53,246 nt of DNA from contig JACRDL010000009.1 of NCBI GenBank assembly GCA_016218625.1, positions 1-53,246 of the forward strand, written 5' to 3'. The position numbers were made by a program, and so were the translations under genes. How positions within the stretch are numbered: position 1 is the first letter of the stretch; every line of letters begins with the position of its first letter. Below, in pieces: positions 5,295 through 44,081 of the stretch. Under the pieces are notes generated by a model that was not told the DNA's origin, made no database searches, and was given only the letters and a program-made list of their open reading frames with translations. This stretch comes from Elusimicrobiota bacterium (lineage in GTDB: Bacteria; Elusimicrobiota; UBA8919).

Positions 5295-5328
5295 AATCCT
5301 ATGCTTCTGGTGTAGGATTTTTATTTTT
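5295..5328 (+). terminator. intrinsic terminator of the TPP riboswitch
   Basis: AATCCTA (5295-5301) pairs with TAGGATT (5313-5319), followed by a T-rich tract to 5328. It lies about 17 bases after the riboswitch core and 115 bases before the gene, so it is probably the ligand-controlled off switch. Confidence 0.75.
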
Positions 5329-5333
5329 AATAG

Positions 5334-5430
5334 CATCGGAATTTGAAAGGCGCCACAGAATTACACAGAAAAAAGCACAGAAATAACTTCTGTGAAATTC
5401 TGTGACATTCTGTGGTTTATCTTGACAGAG
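5334..5430. repeat. CACAGA palindromic repeat, copy upstream of thi4
   Basis: Arms CCACAGAATTACACAGAA and TTCTGTGACATTCTGTGG (outermost pairs 5353-5415). The whole segment, including flanks ATCGGAATTT and TATCTTGA, matches the copy at 38374-38470, so the element is about 97 bp. It stands between the terminator and the ribosome site of the next gene. Confidence 0.85.
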
Positions 5431-13051: not shown

Positions 13052-14314
13052 ATGAAATATCTATTAATCCTAAGTTGCTTATTTTTAGTTAATACTCTGT
13101 CTTTTGCTCAGGAAAAAATTCTTACATTAGAAGAAGTAGTTAAACAAGCAAGAGAAAACAATCCTGAAATTATTGCAATGCGGAAAAAATGGGATGCGGC
13201 GAAATCAAGAATCTGGCAGGAAAAAACATGGGAAAACCCGCAACTTTTTATTGACTGGCAAAAAATTCCGAAAAACGATTTTGACTTGAATAATGCCGAA
13301 GAAAAAATGTTTGGTATAAGTCAGATGGTGCCTTTTCCCGGCAAACTTTCAATTAAAGGAAAAATTGCAAAATACAATGCCGAAATAGCAGAAATTGATT
13401 ACAAAAATACCGAACTTAAAGTGCTGTCAGATTTAAAATCGGCTTACGCAATGTATTTTTATATAAATAAGTCCATAGAAACATATAAACAGATTTCTGA
13501 TTATATGCAGAATTTCAGCAAGGTTGCAGAATCAAAATATGTAGTCGGAAAGGCAAGTCAGGGCGATGTTTTGCGTACACAGGTAGAGGCGGTAAAGATG
13601 TCAAATATGGTTATTACAATGGAGCAGGAAAAAGAAACGGTTAAGGCAGAGTTGAATTCGTTAATCGGAAAAAATGCCGATGAAATTATAGGCGAGCCGG
13701 AAGAGTTATCGCCAAAATATATAAAGAATAATTGGGATGAAATAAAAAAGTTGGTTATTTCCAACAATCCTGAAATCAGGCAGCAAAATGCATCGGTCTC
13801 AAAAAATAAATGGTTAAAAAAAATGGCTTATACTGAATTCCTACCCGACTTTGATTTAACTTACCGCAGAAGAAAAATGGAAATGGGAAATGATAGCCAG
13901 GATTTTATGCTTGGTTTTACCGTACCTTTATGGTTCTGGAAACCGGCATTAGGCGTTAAAGAAATGTCGGATGAATTAAAAATGGCGGAATCAGAGAGTA
14001 AAAACACAGAACTGATGGCTGTATATGAGGCAAAAGAGTTTTTTGTAAAACTGAAAACAGCTGGTCGGTTTATAGAACTTTATCGCACAAGCGTGCTGCC
14101 GCCGGCAGAGCAATCATTAAAAGTAACCGAGTCGGCTTATCGTTCGGATAAAGAGGATTTTTTAAATTTGCTTGACAGTGTTCGAACTTTACTGGATTTT
14201 CGGCTTGAGTATTACAAATATATTGCACAGTATCATCAAAATCTGGCTATGCTCGAAAAAATAACGGGAGTTGAATTATCTGGCGGAGTTCTTCCCGAAG
14301 GAGAAACAAAATGA
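13052..14314 (+). CDS. TolC-family outer-membrane efflux protein (CusC/CzcC-like)
   Basis: 420 residues with a signal peptide (ILSCLFLVNTLSFAQ) and the long helical OEP pattern, including LEEVVKQARENNPEI, a MVPFPGKL turn and SKYVVGKASQGDVLR. It forms the outer-membrane duct. Its stop overlaps the start of the adaptor gene by 4 bp, and it is the first of the three pump components. Confidence 0.88.
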   Translation: MKYLLILSCLFLVNTLSFAQEKILTLEEVVKQARENNPEIIAMRKKWDAAKSRIWQEKTWENPQLFIDWQKIPKNDFDLNNAEEKMFGISQMVPFPGKLSIKGKIAKYNAEIAEIDYKNTELKVLSDLKSAYAMYFYINKSIETYKQISDYMQNFSKVAESKYVVGKASQGDVLRTQVEAVKMSNMVITMEQEKETVKAELNSLIGKNADEIIGEPEELSPKYIKNNWDEIKKLVISNNPEIRQQNASVSKNKWLKKMAYTEFLPDFDLTYRRRKMEMGNDSQDFMLGFTVPLWFWKPALGVKEMSDELKMAESESKNTELMAVYEAKEFFVKLKTAGRFIELYRTSVLPPAEQSLKVTESAYRSDKEDFLNLLDSVRTLLDFRLEYYKYIAQYHQNLAMLEKITGVELSGGVLPEGETK

Positions 14315-15561
14315 AATTAAAAATTTTTCTTGCAGGTTTGGTTTTTATTATAGCGACGGGTTGTACTAAAAAAGAAGAAATGTCGGTTCGCAAAGTTATA
14401 ATTACCGAGATTGGCAAGCAGAATGTTTGTCCCGTGACAAAAAATAAGTTTACGGTCACAGGCGAGACAAGGGCGATTGATTATAAAGGGCAGACATATT
14501 ATTTCTGTTGTCCCGGATGTGATTCTGAATTTATTAAAGAACCTGATAAATATATAGGTCAGAAACAAGAAACAAGAAGCCAGAAGCAAGAAGTAAAAAG
14601 TCACACGAGCCACGAAGAGCGAGCCACGAACAACGAGATTCTCTACTGGACATGTTCAATGCATCCGCAGGTCCGCTCTGACAAACCCGGGAAATGTCCT
14701 ATATGTGCTATGACGCTCATACCTATATATAAAGGCGAGGAAGACAAAACTATTGTTGATGAAAACACAAAAAAAATTACGGGATTGAAAAGTCAGAAAG
14801 CGACAAAGATGCATCTTACAAAAATAATCCGTCTGCCCGGCCGGGTGGCATCCGATAATGAACTCTATTTGGCTCAGCAGGAATATATTTTAAGTTATAA
14901 AAATAGGAATAAAGAACTGCTGGAGGCATCAAAGTTCCGACTGTCCTTGCTCGGTTATAATGAAAAAGATATATACGAACTTCAGAAGATGGATGAACCG
15001 GATAAAAGTTTAATCTATCCCGGTAAAAATATCTGGGTATATGCAGAGATATATGAATATGATACGGGTTTAATAAAGCCGGGATTATCCGTTGATGCGA
15101 TTTTCTCCGCATATCCGAATGTAAATTTTAAGGGAGTTGTCCGATTTATAGAGCCAACATTAAATCAACAAACCCGTTCTGCCAAAGCCAGGGTTTTCGT
15201 TGAAGACCCCGCTCGGCTTCTTAAACTTGAAATGTATGCTGTCATTGAAATAAAAATAAATCCGGGAAAGGTCTTGAGCATACCTGAGAATGCCCTCATT
15301 GATACCGGCACCCGCAAACTTGTATATCTTGATTTGGGAAACGGCAGGTATAAACCGCAGGAAGTAAAAACAGGTTTTTCGGGAGAAGGTTATGTGGAGA
15401 TTGTAAGCGGAATGAAAGAGGGCGATGCGGTTGTAACGGACGGTAATTTTATGCTGGATTCTCAATCAACATTGACCGGCGGGCAGTCGTTGTTATATGG
15501 CGGTGCAGAAGAAGTGAAATCCGAAAAAGAAAAACCCAAAAAAGTTAAGCATAAGCATTAA
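14311..15561 (+). CDS. RND periplasmic adaptor (CusB-like) with YHS and heavy-metal-binding domains
   Basis: 416 residues. Lipoprotein signal with Cys18 (ATGC), a YHS/TRASH-like module (Cys40, Cys66, Cys67, Cys70), a low-complexity linker at residues 84-108, a heavy-metal-binding domain (YWTCSMHP...GKCPICAM) and then a membrane-fusion protein body with VWVYAEIYEYD-like barrel and LSIPENALI. The DNA of the linker (about 14565-14640) is built of short repeated units (AGAAGC, CACGA) like other in-frame repeats here. Two extra metal-binding modules suggest it takes metal directly from periplasmic donors. Confidence 0.88.
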   Translation: MKLKIFLAGLVFIIATGCTKKEEMSVRKVIITEIGKQNVCPVTKNKFTVTGETRAIDYKGQTYYFCCPGCDSEFIKEPDKYIGQKQETRSQKQEVKSHTSHEERATNNEILYWTCSMHPQVRSDKPGKCPICAMTLIPIYKGEEDKTIVDENTKKITGLKSQKATKMHLTKIIRLPGRVASDNELYLAQQEYILSYKNRNKELLEASKFRLSLLGYNEKDIYELQKMDEPDKSLIYPGKNIWVYAEIYEYDTGLIKPGLSVDAIFSAYPNVNFKGVVRFIEPTLNQQTRSAKARVFVEDPARLLKLEMYAVIEIKINPGKVLSIPENALIDTGTRKLVYLDLGNGRYKPQEVKTGFSGEGYVEIVSGMKEGDAVVTDGNFMLDSQSTLTGGQSLLYGGAEEVKSEKEKPKKVKHKH

Positions 15562-19963: not shown

Positions 19964-21236
19964 CATACTAGTCGGGTTTGCATTTGTGTTCGTTATGCCG
20001 TATTTTATCTGGCGGTATAAACTTGCTGCTTTTGATAAAATGGCTCTCGGCATAAAACAGCGTCTGGGGTTTTATGATATTGAAAAGGGAAAAGATATTT
20101 TAATTCATGCTTCATCTGTCGGCGAGTTGAAAACCATAACGATGTTTATTGAAAAATTGAAAAAAATGTTTCCTGGAAAAAAAATTCTTATATTAACAAT
20201 GACACCATATGGTTATAAATATGTTCTTGACAAAAAAATTGCCGATAAGGTTGTTTTTGCTCCGATTGATGTTCCATTTTGCGTTGAAAAATTATTTTTA
20301 AGGGTTATACCGGAGATGCTTATTCTTGTTGAGAGCGAACTTTGGCCGAATCTGATTTTTTCAGTCGCAAGGAAGGGTGCAAAAATTGTCTCAATTAATG
20401 CAAGGATGTCTGATAAAAGTTTTCGCAGATATTTGTTCGTAAAAGAGTTTATGGCGGAAATTCTGAAAAATATAGATTTTATTTGTGCCCGTGAGGAATC
20501 CGACAGAAATAAATTTATTGCTTTGGGATATGATGAAAAAAAGGTGATAAAAACCGGTAATATGAAATATGATAAAATTGAAACCGTTTCTACAAAAAGA
20601 AGTATAACAAACAAGGATTTCGGTTTTACCGATACCGATTTGATTTTTGTAGCAGGCAGCACCAGAGAGCAGGAAGAAGAAATAGTAATAAATGTTTATA
20701 AAAAATTGGCAGAGGAGTTTTCAAACTTAAAACTGACAATTGCGCCTCGTTATCCGGAAAGGTGCCAAGATGTAGAAAAAATTTTACAAAAAGAAAACAT
20801 ATCGTTTATCCGCAAATCCCAACTCCCCACTCCCCACTCCCTACTTCCCGCTTCCCGCTGCCTTTTGCTTGACACCATCGGAGAACTTACCGATGCCTAT
20901 TCAATAGGAACCATTACTTTCGTCGGCGGGAGTTTGTTTGACGGTGCCGGCGGGCATAATATGTTAGAGCCGGCGGAACTTGGCAAGACAGTTATCTTCG
21001 GTAAATTTGTCAAAAATTTTCAAGAGTCGGCTGAATTATTGATTTTACAAAAAGCAGCATTTCAGGTAAGCGATGAAAAAGAGTTTTGTAATTCCGCCCG
21101 CAGATTACTAATTGATGCAAAATTAAGAGATGAAATGGGAAAACGGGCAAAGGAAGTTGTCGTCAGCCGTCGCGGTGCAACCGATAAGAGCCTAAAAATC
21201 ATTTCGGAGATAATAAAAGATGATGCAAACAGATAA
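19947..21236 (+). CDS. waaA: 3-deoxy-D-manno-octulosonic acid transferase
   Basis: N-terminal membrane anchor (VYNILVGFAFVFVMPY), then HASSVGEL, VESELWPNL, KTGNMKYD and a C-terminal domain with VGGSLFDGAGGHNMLEPA, all typical of WaaA/KdtA, which attaches Kdo to lipid IVA. The start is uncertain: AGGAGG at 19929-19934 would serve the GTG at 19947, while the frame is open from TTG 19926. Residues coded at 20819-20863 come from a tandem repeat, and the final codons (DDANR) from a palindromic repeat. Confidence 0.92.
   Translation: MLLVYNILVGFAFVFVMPYFIWRYKLAAFDKMALGIKQRLGFYDIEKGKDILIHASSVGELKTITMFIEKLKKMFPGKKILILTMTPYGYKYVLDKKIADKVVFAPIDVPFCVEKLFLRVIPEMLILVESELWPNLIFSVARKGAKIVSINARMSDKSFRRYLFVKEFMAEILKNIDFICAREESDRNKFIALGYDEKKVIKTGNMKYDKIETVSTKRSITNKDFGFTDTDLIFVAGSTREQEEEIVINVYKKLAEEFSNLKLTIAPRYPERCQDVEKILQKENISFIRKSQLPTPHSLLPASRCLLLDTIGELTDAYSIGTITFVGGSLFDGAGGHNMLEPAELGKTVIFGKFVKNFQESAELLILQKAAFQVSDEKEFCNSARRLLIDAKLRDEMGKRAKEVVVSRRGATDKSLKIISEIIKDDANR
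20819..20863 (+). repeat. in-frame tandem repeat inside waaA
   Basis: Units like CTCCCCA and CTACTTCCCG repeat and end in CCCGCTG. They code QLPTPHSLLPASRC, a low-complexity insert between the two lobes of the enzyme that preserves the frame. Confidence 0.7.
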
Positions 21237-21309: not shown

Positions 21310-22338
21310 ATGCTTAAATTATCAACGGCCATAGGCAGTATGCCTCACAATGACAGGAAAAAAGCAATTGAGATTATTATGAAAAATCTTGCTATCCCTA
21401 TTTGGCCGCAACTTCCTAAAATAAGTTTCAGGGAAAGTATGTATGCACAGTATTCTGAGGGTTTCCCCTGCCTTGAAGTTTCTGAAAAAAACCAAAAAAT
21501 ATTTTTTGATACCAATGGCGATGTGCTTCTATCATTGGAAAAATTCTATGAAAAAATTATTGCTGACGATTTAGAGTATTTTAAGATTTCACAAGATTAT
21601 GCTGCTGGTTTGTATGAATTTATTTCTCAACTTTCCACTTTCCACTTCCCACTTCCCGCTGTTAAAGGGCAGATTACAGGACCAATTACCTTCGGTTTGA
21701 AGGTAACCGATAAAAATAACCGTTCCATATTCTATAACGAGCAATTCACCGATGTCGTGGTTAAAACGCTGACGATGAAAGCCAGATGGCAAATACGGCA
21801 ATTAAAAATTAAAAATGAAAAATTAAAAATTATTATGTTTATTGATGAACCGTATCTGTCTGCTTTTGGCAGCGCTTTTACGCAGGTTTCCCGTGAAGAA
21901 GTAATAAAATATCTTAACGAGGTTTCTGACGGTATTCACAAAGAACATTCACTGTCAGGGGTTCACTGCTGCGGAAATACCGACTGGTCGGTTTTAATGG
22001 ATACGAACATTGACATTATTTCCTTTGATGCTTACAGTTTTTTTGACGGATTAATTCTCTATCCCGAAAAACTGAATAAATTTTTCGAAAGAGGCGGAGT
22101 GTTAGCTTGGGGAATTGTGCCGAGTTCCGAACTAATAAATTCTGAAACGGTGGAATCATTGGCGGAAAATTTCACGGACAAAGTTCAACAACTTATTAAA
22201 AAGGGCATCACCGCCGAAGCGGTTAAAAATAGGTATATAATAACTCCATCCTGCGGCGTTGGCTCTCTATCGGAAGAACTTGCGGAAAAAATTATTGTGA
22301 TGACAAAAGATGTAGCGGAAAGTTTATTAAAAACATAG
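21310..22338 (+). CDS. MetE-like / uroporphyrinogen decarboxylase-superfamily methyltransferase
   Basis: 342 residues, one barrel domain related to the C-terminal half of cobalamin-independent methionine synthase. GVHCCGNTDW and TPSCGVGSLS carry the likely zinc ligands; MFIDEPYLS is the third conserved block. With no N-terminal half, it may take a methyl group from a corrinoid protein or folate rather than polyglutamyl-folate. It sits before a CooC gene, which suggests a link to acetyl-CoA-pathway methyl transfer or to methionine synthesis in an anaerobe. Two short low-complexity inserts (21630-21660, 21800-21836) are repeat-derived. Confidence 0.72.
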   Translation: MLKLSTAIGSMPHNDRKKAIEIIMKNLAIPIWPQLPKISFRESMYAQYSEGFPCLEVSEKNQKIFFDTNGDVLLSLEKFYEKIIADDLEYFKISQDYAAGLYEFISQLSTFHFPLPAVKGQITGPITFGLKVTDKNNRSIFYNEQFTDVVVKTLTMKARWQIRQLKIKNEKLKIIMFIDEPYLSAFGSAFTQVSREEVIKYLNEVSDGIHKEHSLSGVHCCGNTDWSVLMDTNIDIISFDAYSFFDGLILYPEKLNKFFERGGVLAWGIVPSSELINSETVESLAENFTDKVQQLIKKGITAEAVKNRYIITPSCGVGSLSEELAEKIIVMTKDVAESLLKT

Positions 22339-33423: not shown

Positions 33424-33509
33424 GGACAATTACAGAAGGAAAAAGGAAGATGGAAGATTAAAGTCGTTAATTTGCAATTTTCCTTTTGCAATTTGTAATT
33501 GATTTTATC

Positions 33510-35159
33510 ATGTGCGGAATTGTCGGCTATATCGGAAATAAAACGGCGGCGGATGTTATTTTAAACGGACTTAACCGGCTTGAATACCGCGGATATGATT
33601 CTTCCGGTATCGCAACTATTGAAAACAAAAGCATAAAAATTTCCCGCGCTGTCGGAAAAATTAAAAATCTTTATTCGGCAGTTCAAACGGAAAAATTTTC
33701 GGGAACAGTCGGGGTAGGGCATATCAGATGGGCTACACATGGCAAACCCTCCGAGGAAAATGCCCATCCGCATACCGACTGCTCCGGAAAAATCGTCATT
33801 GTCCATAACGGAATTATTGAAAATTATAGGCAGTTAAAAAAGGAACTAATATCTTCAGGTCATAAATTTCGCTCGGAAACTGACACGGAGGTTATAGTCC
33901 ATCTTATAGAAAAGTATTACAGCGGCGATATTTTGTCGGCGGTGAAAACCGCAGTGAAATATCTCAAAGGCGCATATGCCCTCGGTGTGATTTCGCAGGA
34001 CAATCCGGATGTTCTGATAGGTGTCCGTTATGATGCTCCGCTGGTAGTGGGCGTGGGCGAAAAGGAATTTTTTATCGCATCCGATATCCCGGCCCTTCTT
34101 CCATATACAAAAAAATTTATCTATCTTTCCGACGGCGACATCGTGGAACTAAAAAAGGATTCTTGTAAAATTTTTGACATATCTGACAACATTACCGAGA
34201 GAAAAATCAATACTATCGAGTGGGATTCTCTTATGGCGGAAAAATCCGGCTATAAACATTTTATGTTGAAAGAAATAATGGAGCAGCCGCAGACAATTGA
34301 AGATACCTTCCGCGGCCGTCTTGCCGTTGAAGATATAAACGAATTTTTCGGCGAGATAAATATAAATCCGCAAACAATACGGGATATAAATAAAATTTCA
34401 ATTGTCGCCTGCGGGACATCATATCATGCCGGTTTAATCGGAAAATTTCTGTTTGAATCACTTTCCGGAATATCTTGCGAGACAGACATCGGTTCGGAGT
34501 TCAGATACCGGGATTTGATTATTGACGACAAAACGTTGATAATTGCAATAAGTCAGTCGGGCGAAACAGCCGATACAATCGCTCCGTTGAGAGAAGCAAA
34601 AAAGCACGGTGCAAAAACACTATCAATATGCAATGTGATGGGTTCAACCATTACCCGCGAGTCATCCAGCACTTTCTATACAAGATGCGGTCCGGAAATA
34701 GGGGTCGCTTCCACAAAAGCATTTACCGGACAACTTACCGCACTGCATCTTTTGGCGCTTTATTTCGGAATTGTAAGAGGAAAAATCACAAAGGACTTGG
34801 CATCTAAATTTATTGACTCACTTATTCAAATTCCGCATGAAATCTCCGAAATTTTAAAAAAAGAAAATGAGATAAAATCAATCGCAAAAAAGTTTTTCAA
34901 AAAATCACATTTTCTATATTTGGGTCGCGGACTGAACTTTCCTATTGCGTTAGAAGGTGCGTTGAAACTGAAAGAAATTTCATATATTCATGCGGAGGGC
35001 TATGCCTCGGGAGAGATGAAACACGGACCGATTGCGCTTATAGACGAGAATATGCCGGTTGTATGCATCGCGACTATCGGCAGGGTCTACGAAAAAATTC
35101 TTTCAAATATAGAAGAAGTAAAAGCCCGCGAGGGAATTGTTATAGCGGTTGCCACATAA
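33510..35159 (+). CDS. glmS: glutamine--fructose-6-phosphate aminotransferase, ended by an in-frame TAA
   Basis: N-terminal glutaminase starts MCGIVGYIG (Cys as residue 2 before Met removal), ATG at 33510. Two SIS isomerase domains follow (CGTSYHAGL, SQSGETADT, GRGLNFPIALEGALKLKEI). At codon 550 (35157-35159) TAA replaces what should be a sense codon in IAVATxVDEL. The reading frame then continues for 59 codons that match the GlmS C-terminus. Read through, the protein would be 609 residues long, the normal size. Makes glucosamine-6-P, the substrate for GlmM. Confidence 0.85.
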   Translation: MCGIVGYIGNKTAADVILNGLNRLEYRGYDSSGIATIENKSIKISRAVGKIKNLYSAVQTEKFSGTVGVGHIRWATHGKPSEENAHPHTDCSGKIVIVHNGIIENYRQLKKELISSGHKFRSETDTEVIVHLIEKYYSGDILSAVKTAVKYLKGAYALGVISQDNPDVLIGVRYDAPLVVGVGEKEFFIASDIPALLPYTKKFIYLSDGDIVELKKDSCKIFDISDNITERKINTIEWDSLMAEKSGYKHFMLKEIMEQPQTIEDTFRGRLAVEDINEFFGEININPQTIRDINKISIVACGTSYHAGLIGKFLFESLSGISCETDIGSEFRYRDLIIDDKTLIIAISQSGETADTIAPLREAKKHGAKTLSICNVMGSTITRESSSTFYTRCGPEIGVASTKAFTGQLTALHLLALYFGIVRGKITKDLASKFIDSLIQIPHEISEILKKENEIKSIAKKFFKKSHFLYLGRGLNFPIALEGALKLKEISYIHAEGYASGEMKHGPIALIDENMPVVCIATIGRVYEKILSNIEEVKAREGIVIAVAT

Positions 35160-35402: not shown

Positions 35403-35573
35403 ATGATAGGGCTGATAAAAAATCTTGTTAAATCTGAAACTGCTGCTGCAGATACCGAGTATTCTCTGCTCATTCTTTTACTTGTTGCTTCAATATTAGC
35501 ATTAAGAGTTTTTTCAACCGTGCTGAATGCTGTTTTGGTTAAAGCCGCTGTAAGGATAACAGGCGTTGTATAA
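35403..35573 (+). CDS. Flp/Tad-type pilin-like peptide 1
   Basis: 56 residues: short basic leader, then AAADTEYSLLILLLVASILA. The Glu-Tyr pair at +5/+6 after a small residue is the class IVb prepilin motif, followed by a hydrophobic helix. The frame is open 10 codons further upstream, but that part lies in the promoter. Confidence 0.75.
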   Translation: MIGLIKNLVKSETAAADTEYSLLILLLVASILALRVFSTVLNAVLVKAAVRITGVV

Positions 35574-35749
35574 TGAAGATTACAAATTATAAATTACGAA
35601 TTACGAATAAAGGTCAGTCAATGACGGAATATCTGCTTGTTGCTTTTTTGATTTCGTTTGCGGTTTTTCAAGCGGTTAATACATTCGGAAAAGCACTCAA
35701 TGTTGCTTTTTTACAGGCAATAAATAATATTGCCGTCAACATAAAATGA
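35573..35749 (+). CDS. Flp/Tad-type pilin-like peptide 2
   Basis: 58 residues; start ATG overlaps the preceding stop (TAATG). Leader MKITNYKLRITNK is coded by a repetitive AATTACGAATTACG stretch. Cleavage site NKG|QSMTEY, then a hydrophobic helix LLVAFLISFAVFQAV. Confidence 0.8.
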   Translation: MKITNYKLRITNKGQSMTEYLLVAFLISFAVFQAVNTFGKALNVAFLQAINNIAVNIK

Positions 35750-35759
35750 GGTAAATAAA

Positions 35760-35945
35760 ATGAAAACGATCCGTTTTAAAAAAGGTCAAGGGATGACTGA
35801 GTATGTATTGATGATTTTTCTTATTGCTTTTCTCGCATATATTGCTGTTGAAACATTCGGTAAAAAAATAAGATACGGATTTCTTTCCGCCGGGAACAAG
35901 GTTTCTGGAATTTGCAATGCCGAAACACCGGGGATTTATAAATAA
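35760..35945 (+). CDS. Flp/Tad-type pilin-like peptide 3
   Basis: 61 residues; leader ends KKG|QGMTEY, hydrophobic helix VLMIFLIAFLAYIAV, and a C-terminal part with one cysteine (GICNAE). RBS GAGG at 35748-35751. Confidence 0.85.
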   Translation: MKTIRFKKGQGMTEYVLMIFLIAFLAYIAVETFGKKIRYGFLSAGNKVSGICNAETPGIYK

Positions 35946-36011
35946 TTTTTAAGAATATATCTAATCAAAATGAAGTTCATTTAATTTGTATGAAAGGGGG
36001 GTGAAAAAAAG

Positions 36012-36182
36012 ATGTTAAAACGGTTATTGAAGAACGAGAGAGCGCAGGGAATGACAGAATATGTTCTGGTTGTATTTCTTATTGCTCTTCTCGCATTTGT
36101 GGCGGTACAGTTGTTCGGCGGCAAAGTGAAAAATGCGTTTAATAAAGCCGGAACAAAACTTGACCAGGCAACGAAGAAGTAA
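36012..36182 (+). CDS. Flp/Tad-type pilin-like peptide 4
   Basis: 56 residues with the strongest ribosome site of the set (AAGGGGGGTG). Leader MLKRLLKNERA, cleavage A|QGMTEY, helix VLVVFLIALLAFVAVQLFG and a basic tail (KVKNAFNKAGTKLDQATKK). Best match to a structural Flp pilin and the likely main subunit. Confidence 0.85.
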   Translation: MLKRLLKNERAQGMTEYVLVVFLIALLAFVAVQLFGGKVKNAFNKAGTKLDQATKK

Positions 36183-36300
36183 TATAATTAGGTTTTTTTA
36201 ATGTACGGAGATTCGCTTTCTGTGTAATATACGCAATGGCGAATTTCTGCACAGGTTTTGCTTATCTGAAAAAGTATAAGAAATTTTTTTATTTCTGTTT

Positions 36301-36468
36301 ATGAACTATTTCAATAAGAAAGGTCAAGCAATGACCGAGTATGTATTGGTTCTTATGCTATGCGTCATAACCGCATGGGTAGGAACCAATTTTTTTCAGA
36401 GACGATTGAAAAATGTCTACAGCGGTGCATCCCGTACCCGTGCAGGTGTTCAAGGAATGTATCCGTAA
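36301..36468 (+). CDS. Flp/Tad-type pilin-like peptide 5
   Basis: 55 residues; leader MNYFNKKG|QAMTEY, helix VLVLMLCVITAWVGTNFF, then an Arg-rich tail. The 118-bp gap before it holds no other gene. Confidence 0.8.
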   Translation: MNYFNKKGQAMTEYVLVLMLCVITAWVGTNFFQRRLKNVYSGASRTRAGVQGMYP

Positions 36469-36497
36469 AAAGGCAAGTTAAAAGTTAAAGGTTAAAA

Positions 36498-36992
36498 GTG
36501 AGAAGTAAAAAACTAAAAATTATTACTCGCTACTCGCTACTCACTACTCGCTCAAAAGGTCAGACACTTATTGAGTTTGTTCTGATTGCTATTATTTCGA
36601 TTGCGCTTATTTTCGGAGTAATGGACCTTGCGCGGCTTTCATGGACGATGTTTCATCTACACGGCGCCGCATTTGCCGCCGCCAGAGCGGAAGCAGTCAG
36701 AAAAAGCGGATTTACGGCGGCAAACTATGTTACGATGAGAACGCTCGGCGGACACTGCCTTGTTTCTGTAAATAAATCGCATGAAGTACCGTCGCATAAT
36801 CCACCGTGGACAGTTCCTGGAGTCGCATTAAAGAAAGATGATGTAAGAATTTACGCTATTAACGCAACTGTTACATATTTATATAGACCGCTTTTTGCAG
36901 CCGGAGCATTTAAAACAGGTGTTATACCATTAAAGGTTTCGTCACGAATGCAGACGGAAATCCCGAATCCGATACCGCAATCAAGAAATTAA
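36498..36992 (+). CDS. TadE-like pseudopilin
   Basis: 164 residues. SKG|QTLIEFVLIAIISIALIF is the TadE-type prepilin motif, followed by DLARLSW and AARAEA. The leader (MRSKKLKIITRYSLLTTRSK) is coded by tandem CTACTCG units. Minor pilin of the Tad system. Confidence 0.82.
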   Translation: MRSKKLKIITRYSLLTTRSKGQTLIEFVLIAIISIALIFGVMDLARLSWTMFHLHGAAFAAARAEAVRKSGFTAANYVTMRTLGGHCLVSVNKSHEVPSHNPPWTVPGVALKKDDVRIYAINATVTYLYRPLFAAGAFKTGVIPLKVSSRMQTEIPNPIPQSRN

Positions 36993-36994
36993 AA

Positions 36995-37867
36995 ATGAAA
37001 AAATTACTTTTTACTCACTACTCGCTACTCGCAACTCGCTCAAAGGGACAAATTCTTCCGCTTGTTGCTCTGACGGTGCTGGTGCTTTCTATGTTTTCGT
37101 TTCTTGTTTGGAATCTCGGTATGCTTGAATTTAACCGTCAGAAAATGCAGACCGCCGCCGATGCCGCCGCAATATCCGCCTTAAGATGCCGCGCAGCTTT
37201 TTACAATGCGATGGGAATTTTACATGATACAATGCATCTTGATACCATATGGATGGGGCATAATATAAAAAAAGGTGTTATGGAAAAAAACCAGATTCCG
37301 TTATATGAAGCAAATCTTACAGCGCTTAAAAAACTGAATTGGGGTGCTGGCGGTGGGTCCGCATTAACAGCAGGAAGTGCCGCAAAATTAAATGGTGCTG
37401 ATAAACCTTACGGTTTCGGAGGGTTTGTTAAGGGTGGTAAAGGAACAGGACTTAAAGGCAGAAAGATGACATTTTATTCAGGTAATGTTAAGGTTATATA
37501 TCCAGTACCGCCTTTTATACTGGTACTTCCGCCATATAAAAAAAAGACATATAATCCTGCTTATTATTGCAGAACCTGGGAAGATAAATACAGAAAAGCC
37601 CAGCCGAAACAGGAGTTTATGTGGACGGTGAAAAAAAAGAATCAGACCTTTGCAACATCTTTGATTGGGTTAAAAAAACCTGCAGAGGCACGGGCAGTTG
37701 CACAGGCGAAAATTTACTTAAATGTGAGAGGAAATGCTATCGGACACAACGGCGGTTTCCCGAGAAATAAAAAAGAAGGACTATGGGGTTGGGGTCCAGA
37801 ACCATATGCCGGTTATCCGCAGTTTGATGCACGGCTTGTGCCTGTTCGCGGAGTAATGCTACATTAA
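36995..37867 (+). CDS. TadG-like protein with N-terminal Tad domain
   Basis: 290 residues. KGQILPLVALTVLVLSMFSFLVW followed by MQTAADAAAISALR is the TadG N-terminal pattern (putative Flp pilus-assembly). The rest is basic and Gly-rich with no known motif. The leader (LLFTHYSLLATRSK) comes from the same tandem repeat family as its neighbour. Confidence 0.8.
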   Translation: MKKLLFTHYSLLATRSKGQILPLVALTVLVLSMFSFLVWNLGMLEFNRQKMQTAADAAAISALRCRAAFYNAMGILHDTMHLDTIWMGHNIKKGVMEKNQIPLYEANLTALKKLNWGAGGGSALTAGSAAKLNGADKPYGFGGFVKGGKGTGLKGRKMTFYSGNVKVIYPVPPFILVLPPYKKKTYNPAYYCRTWEDKYRKAQPKQEFMWTVKKKNQTFATSLIGLKKPAEARAVAQAKIYLNVRGNAIGHNGGFPRNKKEGLWGWGPEPYAGYPQFDARLVPVRGVMLH

Positions 37868-37869
37868 AA

Positions 37870-38373
37870 ATGAAACCACAGATTACACAGATAAAAAACA
37901 TAGATTACACAGATGTCATTGCGAGGGCGAAGCCCGTGGCAATCTTGAGATTGCTTCGTTTCACTCGCAATGACAAAAAAGGTCAGGCGTTTGCAGAGTT
38001 TATTATCGCACTAATTGTGCTTCCGTTGTTTATCACAGGTACAATTACAATTGCGAGAATGTTTATTGTTAATATGCGGCTTCATCAGGCGGCAAGACAC
38101 GGTGCGTTTCTGATGGCGACGCAACGGGTTACAAAAACTAATATGCTGGACGAAGTAAAAAAATACTTTAGTGCGGGGTATCCTAAATTTGAGACATCAA
38201 AAATCAAAATTGTACATAAAAGCAAACGGGTCGGCTTGATAAAAGGTGACGAAGTAACCGTTAGTTATACGATGAAGGTTTTTGATTTAAGCCGTCTTTC
38301 GTTCTGGAAGGGCACACCGAAAATAGAAAAAAGATTCACACAATCTGCCGTTTGCGGCAGGGCTGCTTTTTAG
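37870..38373 (+). CDS. second TadE-like pseudopilin
   Basis: 167 residues with KKG|QAFAEFIIALIVLPLF and then RMFIVNMRLHQAARHGA. The leader is unusually long (about 38 residues) because two palindromic repeats, including GTCATTGCGAG, lie inside it and keep the frame. Confidence 0.82.
   Translation: MKPQITQIKNIDYTDVIARAKPVAILRLLRFTRNDKKGQAFAEFIIALIVLPLFITGTITIARMFIVNMRLHQAARHGAFLMATQRVTKTNMLDEVKKYFSAGYPKFETSKIKIVHKSKRVGLIKGDEVTVSYTMKVFDLSRLSFWKGTPKIEKRFTQSAVCGRAAF
37914..37975. repeat. GTCATTGCGAG palindromic element inside a prepilin leader
   Basis: Perfect 12-bp arms TGTCATTGCGAG (37914-37925) and CTCGCAATGACA (37964-37975) with an inner GCAATCT/AGATTGC pair. A CACAGATTACACAG segment precedes it at 37874-37913. 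Coded in frame by the pseudopilin gene. Confidence 0.9.
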
Positions 38374-38470
38374 AGTATCGGAATTTCAAAGGCGCCACAG
38401 AAAGACACAGAAAAAAACACAGAAATAACTTCAGTGTAATTCTGTGAAATTCTGTGGCTAATATCTTGAT
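38374..38470. repeat. CACAGA palindromic repeat, copy after the Tad cluster
   Basis: Arms CCACAGAAAGACACAG and CTGTGAAATTCTGTGG (38395-38457), same flanks as 5334-5430. Confidence 0.85.
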
Positions 38471-42802: not shown

Positions 42803-42901
42803 ACCCCGCTCCTACTAAATTGTTGTTTGAGAAAATCTGCTTATTGAAAATATCAAATTCTAATTTTGTCAATTTTACTGGTTTTGCAGGAGGGGCGGGG
42901 T
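42803..42901. repeat. inverted repeat between argC and argJ
   Basis: ACCCCGCTCCTAC right after argC is complementary to GCAGGAGGGGCGGGGT, which contains the ribosome site (AGGAGG, 42888-42893) and start of argJ. Its folding could hide the argJ start. Confidence 0.65.
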
Positions 42902-44081
42902 GAATTTTCCGAAAGGTTTTTTTGCTAACGGGTTGCATTGCGGGATAAAAAAAAACGGGAAAAAAGACCTGTCTATTTTTTATTCCGAAAAACCATCTGT
43001 TGCGGCCGGCGTATTCACGAAAAATATTTTTAAGGCGGCGCCCGTGATTATTTCACAAAAAAATATAAAAAATAAAATACATTGTATTGTGGCTAATTCT
43101 GGTTGTGCTAATGCTTGCACGGGTGAAAGGGGAATTGGTGATGTAAAAAAAATATGCGAGTTGACTGCGGATAAATTAAATGTAAAACCAGAAAATATTT
43201 TGGTTGCTTCAACCGGTGTGATTGGTCAGTATCTACCGATGGAAAAAATTGAAAACGGCATTAGGAAATTGTGTTTATATATTCCACCAACTAACCGACC
43301 GAAATCTGCTGTTGAAGGCATTATGACCACAGACACATTTCCCAAGGTTGTTTCTTCTACCTTCTACCTTCTACCTTCTACCCGCTGTACTATTTGGGCT
43401 TGTGCAAAAGGTTCCGGAATGATTGAGCCGAATTTGGCGACAATGCTTTCTTTCATTTTGACAGACGCGCAAATTACAAAAGAAGCATTAAGCCGTGCCT
43501 TGAAAATTGCGACTGAAAAAAGTTTTAATTGTCTGACTGTTGACGGAGATACATCAACTAATGACACAGTTTTTGTTCTTGCTAACGGAGCTGCAAAAAA
43601 TAAACTTATATCTGACGGTAAAAACTTTCAATTATTTTGCGATAAGTTAACTGCTGTTTGTATTGAACTTACAAAAATGCTTGCCAGTGACGGTGAGGGT
43701 GCGACAAAACTAATTGCCATAAATGTTAGAGACGCTAAAAATATCTGTGATGCAAAAAAAATTGCAAAAACGGTGGCAAATTCTCCGCTTGTTAAGACGG
43801 CTATTTTTGGAAATGACGCAAATTGGGGTCGCATAGTTGCTGCAATCGGAAGAAGTGAAGTAATGGTTGATTCAAAAAAAGTTGATGTTTCTTTCAGTAA
43901 TCTCTGTGTCTTCAAAAAAGGTTGCCCTGTTAGTTTTTCGGAAAAAATTGCAAGAAAAATTATATTACAAAAGGTTGTCTCTATAAATATAAACTTGAAT
44001 AGCGGAAAAGAGTATGCAACCGTTTATACATGCGATTTCAGCGACGGTTACATAAAAGTCAACGCTTCATATAGAACATGA
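42900..44081 (+). CDS. argJ: bifunctional ornithine acetyltransferase / N-acetylglutamate synthase
   Basis: 393 residues, GTG start. FPKGFFANGLHCGIKK, TGVIGQYLP and the autocleavage site PNLATMLSF (Thr nucleophile) are typical. It recycles the acetyl group in arginine synthesis. Residues STFYLLPSTRC just ahead of AKGSGMIEPN are coded by a tandem repeat (43352-43387), so the usual segment before the cleavage site has been replaced or lengthened. Confidence 0.94.
   Translation: MNFPKGFFANGLHCGIKKNGKKDLSIFYSEKPSVAAGVFTKNIFKAAPVIISQKNIKNKIHCIVANSGCANACTGERGIGDVKKICELTADKLNVKPENILVASTGVIGQYLPMEKIENGIRKLCLYIPPTNRPKSAVEGIMTTDTFPKVVSSTFYLLPSTRCTIWACAKGSGMIEPNLATMLSFILTDAQITKEALSRALKIATEKSFNCLTVDGDTSTNDTVFVLANGAAKNKLISDGKNFQLFCDKLTAVCIELTKMLASDGEGATKLIAINVRDAKNICDAKKIAKTVANSPLVKTAIFGNDANWGRIVAAIGRSEVMVDSKKVDVSFSNLCVFKKGCPVSFSEKIARKIILQKVVSININLNSGKEYATVYTCDFSDGYIKVNASYRT
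43352..43387 (+). repeat. in-frame tandem repeat inside argJ
   Basis: Four copies of CTTCTAC or CTTCTACC ending in CCCGCTG, the same ending as the insert in waaA and the MetE-like gene. Confidence 0.75.

Follow-up and report, generated by a model that had tools for sequence, protein, structure and literature searches.

Short tandem-repeat arrays in pilin leaders and conserved enzymes of an Elusimicrobiota family

The Tad pilin cluster at positions 35403-38373 of contig JACRDL010000009.1 (Elusimicrobiota bacterium, lineage UBA8919, GenBank assembly GCA_016218625.1; the whole 53,246-nt stretch, read on the forward strand, is called the window here) raises the question of why the N-termini of four of its genes are encoded by repeat DNA. 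The initial annotation of these genes proposed that prepilin leaders, being removed from the mature pilin, are a safe site at which repeats can settle. We found short in-frame arrays of the same kind inside conserved enzymes and apparent signal peptides throughout samples of four genomes of the family. These genomes probably carry a burden of arrays that persists wherever a protein tolerates a short stretch, with the prepilin leaders being one tolerant site among many.

Repeat DNA in the Tad pilin genes

The cluster encodes five small Flp-like prepilins, TadE1, a TadG-like protein and TadE2, with the following genes and repeats (a slash marks the predicted cleavage point):

35403..35573, plus strand: Flp1-like prepilin (A/AADTEY), leader without a repeat
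35573..35749, plus strand: Flp2 prepilin, leader MKITNYKLRITNKG/QSMTEY (Pfam Flp_Fap 5.4e-5, below the cut-off); ATG 35573 is the sole in-frame start
35579..35608, plus strand: 7-base array ATTACRA (AATTACG family) in the Flp2 leader
35760..35945, plus strand: Flp3 prepilin, short leader without a repeat (MKTIRFKKG/QGMTEY)
36012..36182, plus strand: Flp4 prepilin, leader without a repeat (Pfam Flp_Fap 1.1e-5)
36301..36468, plus strand: Flp5 prepilin, short leader without a repeat
36475..36522, plus strand: AAGTTAA-type 7-base array, preceding the TACTCGC array and the source of the AAAGG and GTG start of TadE1
36498..36992, plus strand: TadE1 minor prepilin, GTG start, leader VRSKKLKIITRYSLLTTRSKG/QTLIEF (Pfam TadE 9.5e-7)
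36524..36552, plus strand: TACTCGC x4 array in the TadE1 leader; Gly codon at 36558
36995..37867, plus strand: TadG-like protein with a Tad domain (Pfam Tad 8e-10) and N-terminal tail MKKLLFTHYSLLATRSKG, without Glu at +5
37012..37040, plus strand: TACTCGC x4 array in the TadG N-terminal tail; Gly codon at 37046
37870..38373, plus strand: TadE2 minor prepilin, 38-aa leader (Pfam TadE 8.9e-7)
37873..37914, plus strand: 22-bp repeat AAAACACAGATTACACAGATAA x1.9 (ACACAGATTACACAGAT repeat) in the TadE2 leader
37915..37974, plus strand: 60-bp palindromic element GTCATTGCGAG...CTCGCAATGAC in the TadE2 leader, in frame; Gly codon at 37981

Direct reading bore out the description of four repeat-coded leaders that stop just before the cleavage motif, the distance from the end of the repeat to the Gly codon preceding the cleavage point being 3-6 bases in all four genes. 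The Flp2 array, for example, reads ATTACAA ATTATAA ATTACGA ATTACGA and ends 3 bases upstream of the Gly codon at 35612, and the TACTCGC arrays of TadE1 and TadG are, together with their flanks, 82% alike across 50 bases. No repeats occurred in the leaders of the four sister pilins read (35403, 35760, 36012 and 36301).

One correction concerns the TadG-like protein. Class III prepilin leaders are hydrophilic and end in Gly or Ala, followed by ~20 hydrophobic residues with Glu at +5 (PMC4471445), as found in Flp2, TadE1 and TadE2; the TadG-like protein (G/QILPLV) lacks this Glu, and in the literature TadG is placed with the membrane sub-complex and is not counted among the pilins (PMC10191384). 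Judged by these sequence features, three of the four genes encode canonical class III prepilins and the TadG-like N-terminus is a membrane-anchored tail, which is probably not cleaved. For all the repeat-bearing leaders cleavage is a prediction; in known pilins the leader, 6-26 aa long, stays cytoplasmic and is cut off (PMC4471445, PMC10191384).

The repeats could be mistaken for leader sequence if they were intergenic and true translation began after them, as an in-frame GTG in the TadE2 palindromic element, with GAGGG upstream, might suggest. In Flp2, TadE1 and TadG this is excluded: no ATG, GTG or TTG lies between the array and the Gly codon, so that the repeats must be translated if the motif is made. 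The TadG start is, in addition, placed alike in a genome of the same genus (G002), with MKKL-LFTHYSLLATR-SKG here as compared with MKKL-KNK-SKG there (MKKLKNKSKG), and the array therefore lies downstream of the start codon as a net gain. The TadE2 start is less certain, because in-frame GTG and TTG codons occur within its element. Taken over the cluster, we consider misread starts to be extremely improbable.

Leaders in related genomes

We compared the genome of the window (G000) with G002, with two further genomes of the same family (G003 and G006) and with G008. A TadE2 scan of named genomes returned two records only, both from Elusimicrobia (UBA4817, ADurb.Bin231). The mature parts of the pilins are conserved in G002, G003 and G006, and the leaders differ. 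In TadE1, the leader unit is TACTCGC here, AATTACG in G002 and TATTCGC in G006, and the leader is without a repeat in G003 and G008; in TadE2, the palindromic element found here is replaced by CCCTGTT x4 in G006 and by two inserts resembling ...GGCGGGCAGG in G003, while the leader of G002 is a bare MMRKKKG (7 aa in G002 and G008 as compared with 38 aa here). The GTCATTGCGAG element recurs in the TadG of G003, and G008 shows no repeat in any of these leaders. Inserts ending in GGCGG[GA]CA occur in the leaders of Flp4, Flp5 and TadE2 of G003 and of Flp2 of G002, where they duplicate the Gly-Gln of the cleavage motif, so that some leaders offer two or three possible Gly/Gln cleavage points.

Some repeat was present in 12 of the 33 tad-cluster leaders that we read by hand in five genomes, with a median length of ~20 aa with a repeat and ~10 aa without one; the listed leaders, array-bearing ones included, are all net positive. 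Type IVa prepilin leaders likewise carry arrays in G000, G002 and G006 (e.g., MKTKNLKTTSDFRLPTYG/FTLIEL in G000 and MKNEKWKVKKSITRYSLPVTRYG/FTLIEV, as well as leaders with 8-base arrays in G006). Leader conservation in repeat-free relatives, which the initial annotation had named as counter-evidence, was not seen: such leaders are short and unrelated in sequence. Prepilin leaders are thus a site where repeats land or are rewritten time and again, in support of the core of the annotation.

In-frame arrays across the family

Counts across the family come from samples of stretches totalling 1.24 Mb in four genomes (449, 196, 418 and 180 kb). The stretches of G000 were picked from contigs holding GTCATTGCGAG, which biases the GTCATTGCGAG count and should not bias that of 7-base arrays, and those of G002 and G006 came partly from contigs with type IV pilin genes. 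Genes were called by a simple hexamer scorer that missed some of them, e.g., the TadE1 and TadE2 leaders of G006.

Period-7 arrays numbered 132, with 45, 34, 20 and 33 in the samples of 449 (this genome), 196, 418 and 180 kb, respectively, as compared with none in a Markov control (order-4 for this genome). Periods 4, 5, 6, 9 and 11 gave 0-3 arrays in the 449 kb of this genome as compared with 45 for period 7, and a search of 1.81 Mb gave 101 copies of GTCATTGCGAG and none of its reversed control; the leader repeats are therefore not due to chance. In each of the four genomes, 7 and 8 are by far the commonest periods, with period 10 in addition in G000. The units found include AAGTAGT, AAGTCCG, AAGTGGG, AACTCTG, ACTCGCT and AATTACG, among others, and the palindromic elements are intergenic at 33 of their 44 places in the sample.

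Most in-gene arrays are internal, outside leaders, and lie in conserved enzymes that keep the array peptide. The genes interrupted by in-frame 7-base arrays in this genome and its relatives include those for IspG, PurH, PheT, HypF, HypE-like, Ddl, GltD-like, KdtA and GatB proteins (assigned by Pfam) as well as ArgJ. The window itself contains the following:

14561..14601, plus strand: 7-base array in frame inside the gene at 14311-15558
20813..20859, plus strand: 7-base array in frame inside a KdtA-like gene
21630..21657, plus strand: 7-base array in frame inside the gene at 21310-22335
21800..21832, plus strand: AATTAAA array in frame inside the gene at 21310-22335
43354..43382, plus strand: CTTCTAC x4 array in frame inside ArgJ (42900-44081); other units occupy the same site in relatives

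The arrays inside genes appear sorted by strand, frame and chemistry. Since neither 7 nor 8 shares a factor with 3, a stop-free array of such units encodes one and the same repeating peptide in every frame (seven residues for a 7-base unit), and the strand alone decides whether the array is open. On the strand of the gene, 58 of 61 scorable in-gene arrays were stop-free, and 29 of 50 intergenic arrays had stops on both strands. Internal arrays are tightly distributed in length (28-35 bp). Arrays at N-termini form the hydrophobic core of apparent signal peptides (e.g., MKKKLFLIFILLITYYLSLITAVNADS) or sit in prepilin leaders and in N-terminal tails ahead of a membrane helix. They exceed internal arrays in hydrophobicity (median 0.81 vs -0.27, p = 5e-5), with peptides of the KSEVRSP type located in gene interiors. 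Such sorting would be the expected outcome of selection against harmful insertions.

If leaders were a preferred harbour because they are removed, repeats should settle there more than elsewhere. Strict arrays were indeed found in 4 of 29 prepilin-like N-termini as compared with 11 of 832 soluble ones (p = 0.001), in line with the hand-read tad-cluster and type IVa leaders. However, arrays were also present in 14 of 281 other membrane or signal N-termini, over which the prepilin leaders showed no clear excess (p = 0.075), nor was the excess over all other genes significant in the relatives alone (p = 0.087). Array density per kb is highest in intergenic DNA (0.38), followed by the first 35 codons (0.21) and the remainder of the genes (0.055), so that the first 35 codons are enriched over that remainder in general (p = 4e-7), Sec signal peptides included. 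Together with the many unremoved internal arrays and the array in the probably uncleaved TadG tail, these figures make a preference for prepilin leaders unlikely. What stands of the safe-site proposal is that leaders are plastic, with repeats coming and going over conserved mature parts; their removal may help and is not required.

Two further explanations concern the position of arrays near gene starts. In the first, the arrays are contingency loci, in which the gain or loss of one unit shifts the frame by one base and toggles pilins and other genes, and pilus genes with 7-base units close to their 5’ end indeed have the classical layout for phase variation. Yet arrays also occur in IspG, PheT, GatB and PurH, where the off state should be lethal or costly, and they have only ~4 units, often imperfect, that differ between relatives; we regard phase variation as highly unlikely. 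In the second, which we rate slightly lower still, the arrays are regulatory DNA or RNA, for instance binding sites close to the start codon, and only happen to be coding. This would agree with the enrichment near gene starts and with the TAACTGA arrays of Beggiatoaceae, proposed as binding sites just upstream of start codons (PMC4679880), but many arrays here lie deep inside genes, and with units that differ between orthologues a common site would hardly be recognisable.

The preferred explanation, a burden of arrays filtered by protein tolerance, would work as follows. Short arrays (~28-35 bp, ~4 units) of 7- and 8-base repeats, along with palindromic elements, would persist wherever the protein tolerates a short stretch, with selection sieving them according to orientation, frame and the chemistry of the peptide. 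The demands on a prepilin leader would be no more than a positive net charge and a K/R/S-G ending, both of which the arrays may supply or spare. That the leader of a type III signal peptide stays cytoplasmic and is cut off would lower the cost of an array without being the cause of the pattern. Many array positions are old, being shared between genera, and the unit sequence turns over fast, probably by copying of repeat units within the array or by replacement.

Several observations weigh against this explanation. At many internal sites, orthologues with and without an array are within 0-2 aa of each other in length, a puzzling result if arrays were simply inserted, and no insertion event was observed directly. 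In G003, arrays at N-termini are far fewer (1/20), and some N-terminal and intergenic assignments may be wrong, given the simple hexamer scorer. Finally, cleavage of the long leaders of TadE1 (21 aa) and TadE2 (38 aa) is a prediction, and a single A24 prepilin peptidase was found in the genome, which is 86% complete.

Other repeat periods deserve mention. Period-8 arrays (e.g., AAGTGAGT) resemble those of period 7 in behaviour and give rise to stretches that look like signal peptides, e.g., LTHLLTYSLTH (L042, L049 and L052 in G000; L148 and L155 in G006). Many intergenic 8-base arrays of the AACCCTAT type, and very few arrays at gene starts, were seen in G003 (L118-L137). Period-10 arrays (AAATTCTGTG; 5388-5414, 38430-38456 and other stretches) are intergenic in 12 of 13 cases in the G000 sample, and their unit gives stop codons when read in frame. 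An intergenic pair of 96-bp repeats (5325-5420 and 38367-38462) is 88% identical and contains CACAGAA repeats.

Unit turnover at fixed sites and comparison with known repeats

At orthologous sites the other genome also had an array in 43 of 64 comparisons (many pairs being counted both ways), mostly with a length difference of 0-2 aa. The same site often holds a different unit, a pattern seen in ArgJ, IspG, HypE-like, GatB, Ddl, MoeA-like and GltD-like genes. In ArgJ, six family genomes carry arrays of CTTCTAC, AAAAATT, TTCTTAA, TTCTCAG, CATCTGC and AGAGTTC, respectively, and the array is not present in two other family genomes nor in the few alignable genomes outside the family. Alignment with the Streptomyces ornithine acetyltransferase, which is ~5 residues shorter in this region, is what suggests that the ArgJ array lies in an indel-tolerant stretch. 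The AlphaFold model of ArgJ obtained with an alignment of four rows had too low a quality to locate the array (mean predicted local distance difference test score 32.7).

Units at the same site were barely more alike than units at different sites (2.71 vs 3.09 differences, p = 0.06), a result compatible both with drift from one ancestral unit and with replacement. In several arrays, variants of the unit form two adjacent blocks (e.g., CTTACCA CTTACCA CTTACCG CTTACCG), a layout that the copying of variants from unit to unit would produce; drift with fast homogenisation and exchange of whole arrays both fit the turnover. A stronger version, which we put forward tentatively and consider rather doubtful, is that a process in this family rewrites in-frame 7-base arrays at fixed protein sites, keeping site and length and swapping the unit even within a genus. 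The genome would then keep overwriting coding sequence in leaders and enzyme loops with fresh repeat peptide, either through copying of units at constant net length or through exchange of arrays.

In-frame repeat DNA in genes is already established for Rickettsia, whose palindromic elements (RPE), as summarized in PMC10969869 (citing Ogata 2000 and 2002), lie in frame in unrelated metabolic genes where the protein tolerates them. The arrays described here share this placement; RPE, as outlined in that source, are ~150-bp palindromes of defined families, whereas here we find mainly ~30-bp arrays of 7- and 8-base units with many sequences. Of the repeats in the cluster, only the GTCATTGCGAG element of TadE2 is palindromic. 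It lies in frame, but most of its places in the sample are intergenic, and a likeness to RPE would be one of layout.

Closer in unit length are the TAACTGA direct repeats of Beggiatoaceae, cyanobacteria and Bacteroidetes, which occur in 2-6 copies and encode one repeating peptide on the open strand, and for which the author proposed tolerance at protein ends (PMC4679880). These likewise are 7-base direct repeats with a frame-independent peptide, but they have one fixed unit and are mostly intergenic, with 24 sets touching open reading frames, in contrast to the dozens of units here and the predominance of conserved enzymes among the in-gene sites; TAACTGA is not among the units that we found. 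Heptanucleotide repeats of Calothrix and the G-rich GGGAATC/GGGGAYT repeats of Xanthomonas and Nostoc also form tandem 7-base units of mostly ~four copies (PMC4692102). With 132 arrays in the four genome samples, our set resembles such short tandemly repeated repetitive sequences in being dispersed tandem 7-base units of several copies; those repeats lie mostly between genes and are under-represented in coding sequence, and the units here are not of the G-tract class.

Dispersed palindromes with terminal inverted GTCATTGCGAG also recall repetitive extragenic palindromic (REP) elements and their associated transposases (RAYTs). The tad cluster of G003 contains a Y1 (IS200-like) transposase gene (L022:10786-11244, minus strand) between Flp2 and Flp4. 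Transposases of this type are associated with REP elements.

For in-frame 7-base arrays in conserved proteins, our literature search gave nothing closer than the RPE, TAACTGA and heptamer reports. The novel features of the present set are how widely arrays occur inside conserved enzymes and signal peptides, the diversity of units, the presence in prepilin leaders and the turnover of units at the same site. With these arrays, the notion of selfish DNA in protein-coding genes takes in, besides the palindromes of Rickettsia, tiny tandem repeats that are open in every frame, and they amount to a natural catalogue of places where proteins tolerate ~10 foreign residues. The same-site, different-unit pattern makes the origin and homogenisation of short in-gene arrays testable with close genomes.

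Upstream of the Tad cluster, a glmS-like frame (33486-35159) has an in-frame stop ~60 codons short of the end of its homologue, with the rest of the frame matching the intact G002 protein; a sequencing error, a pseudogene or readthrough would all fit.

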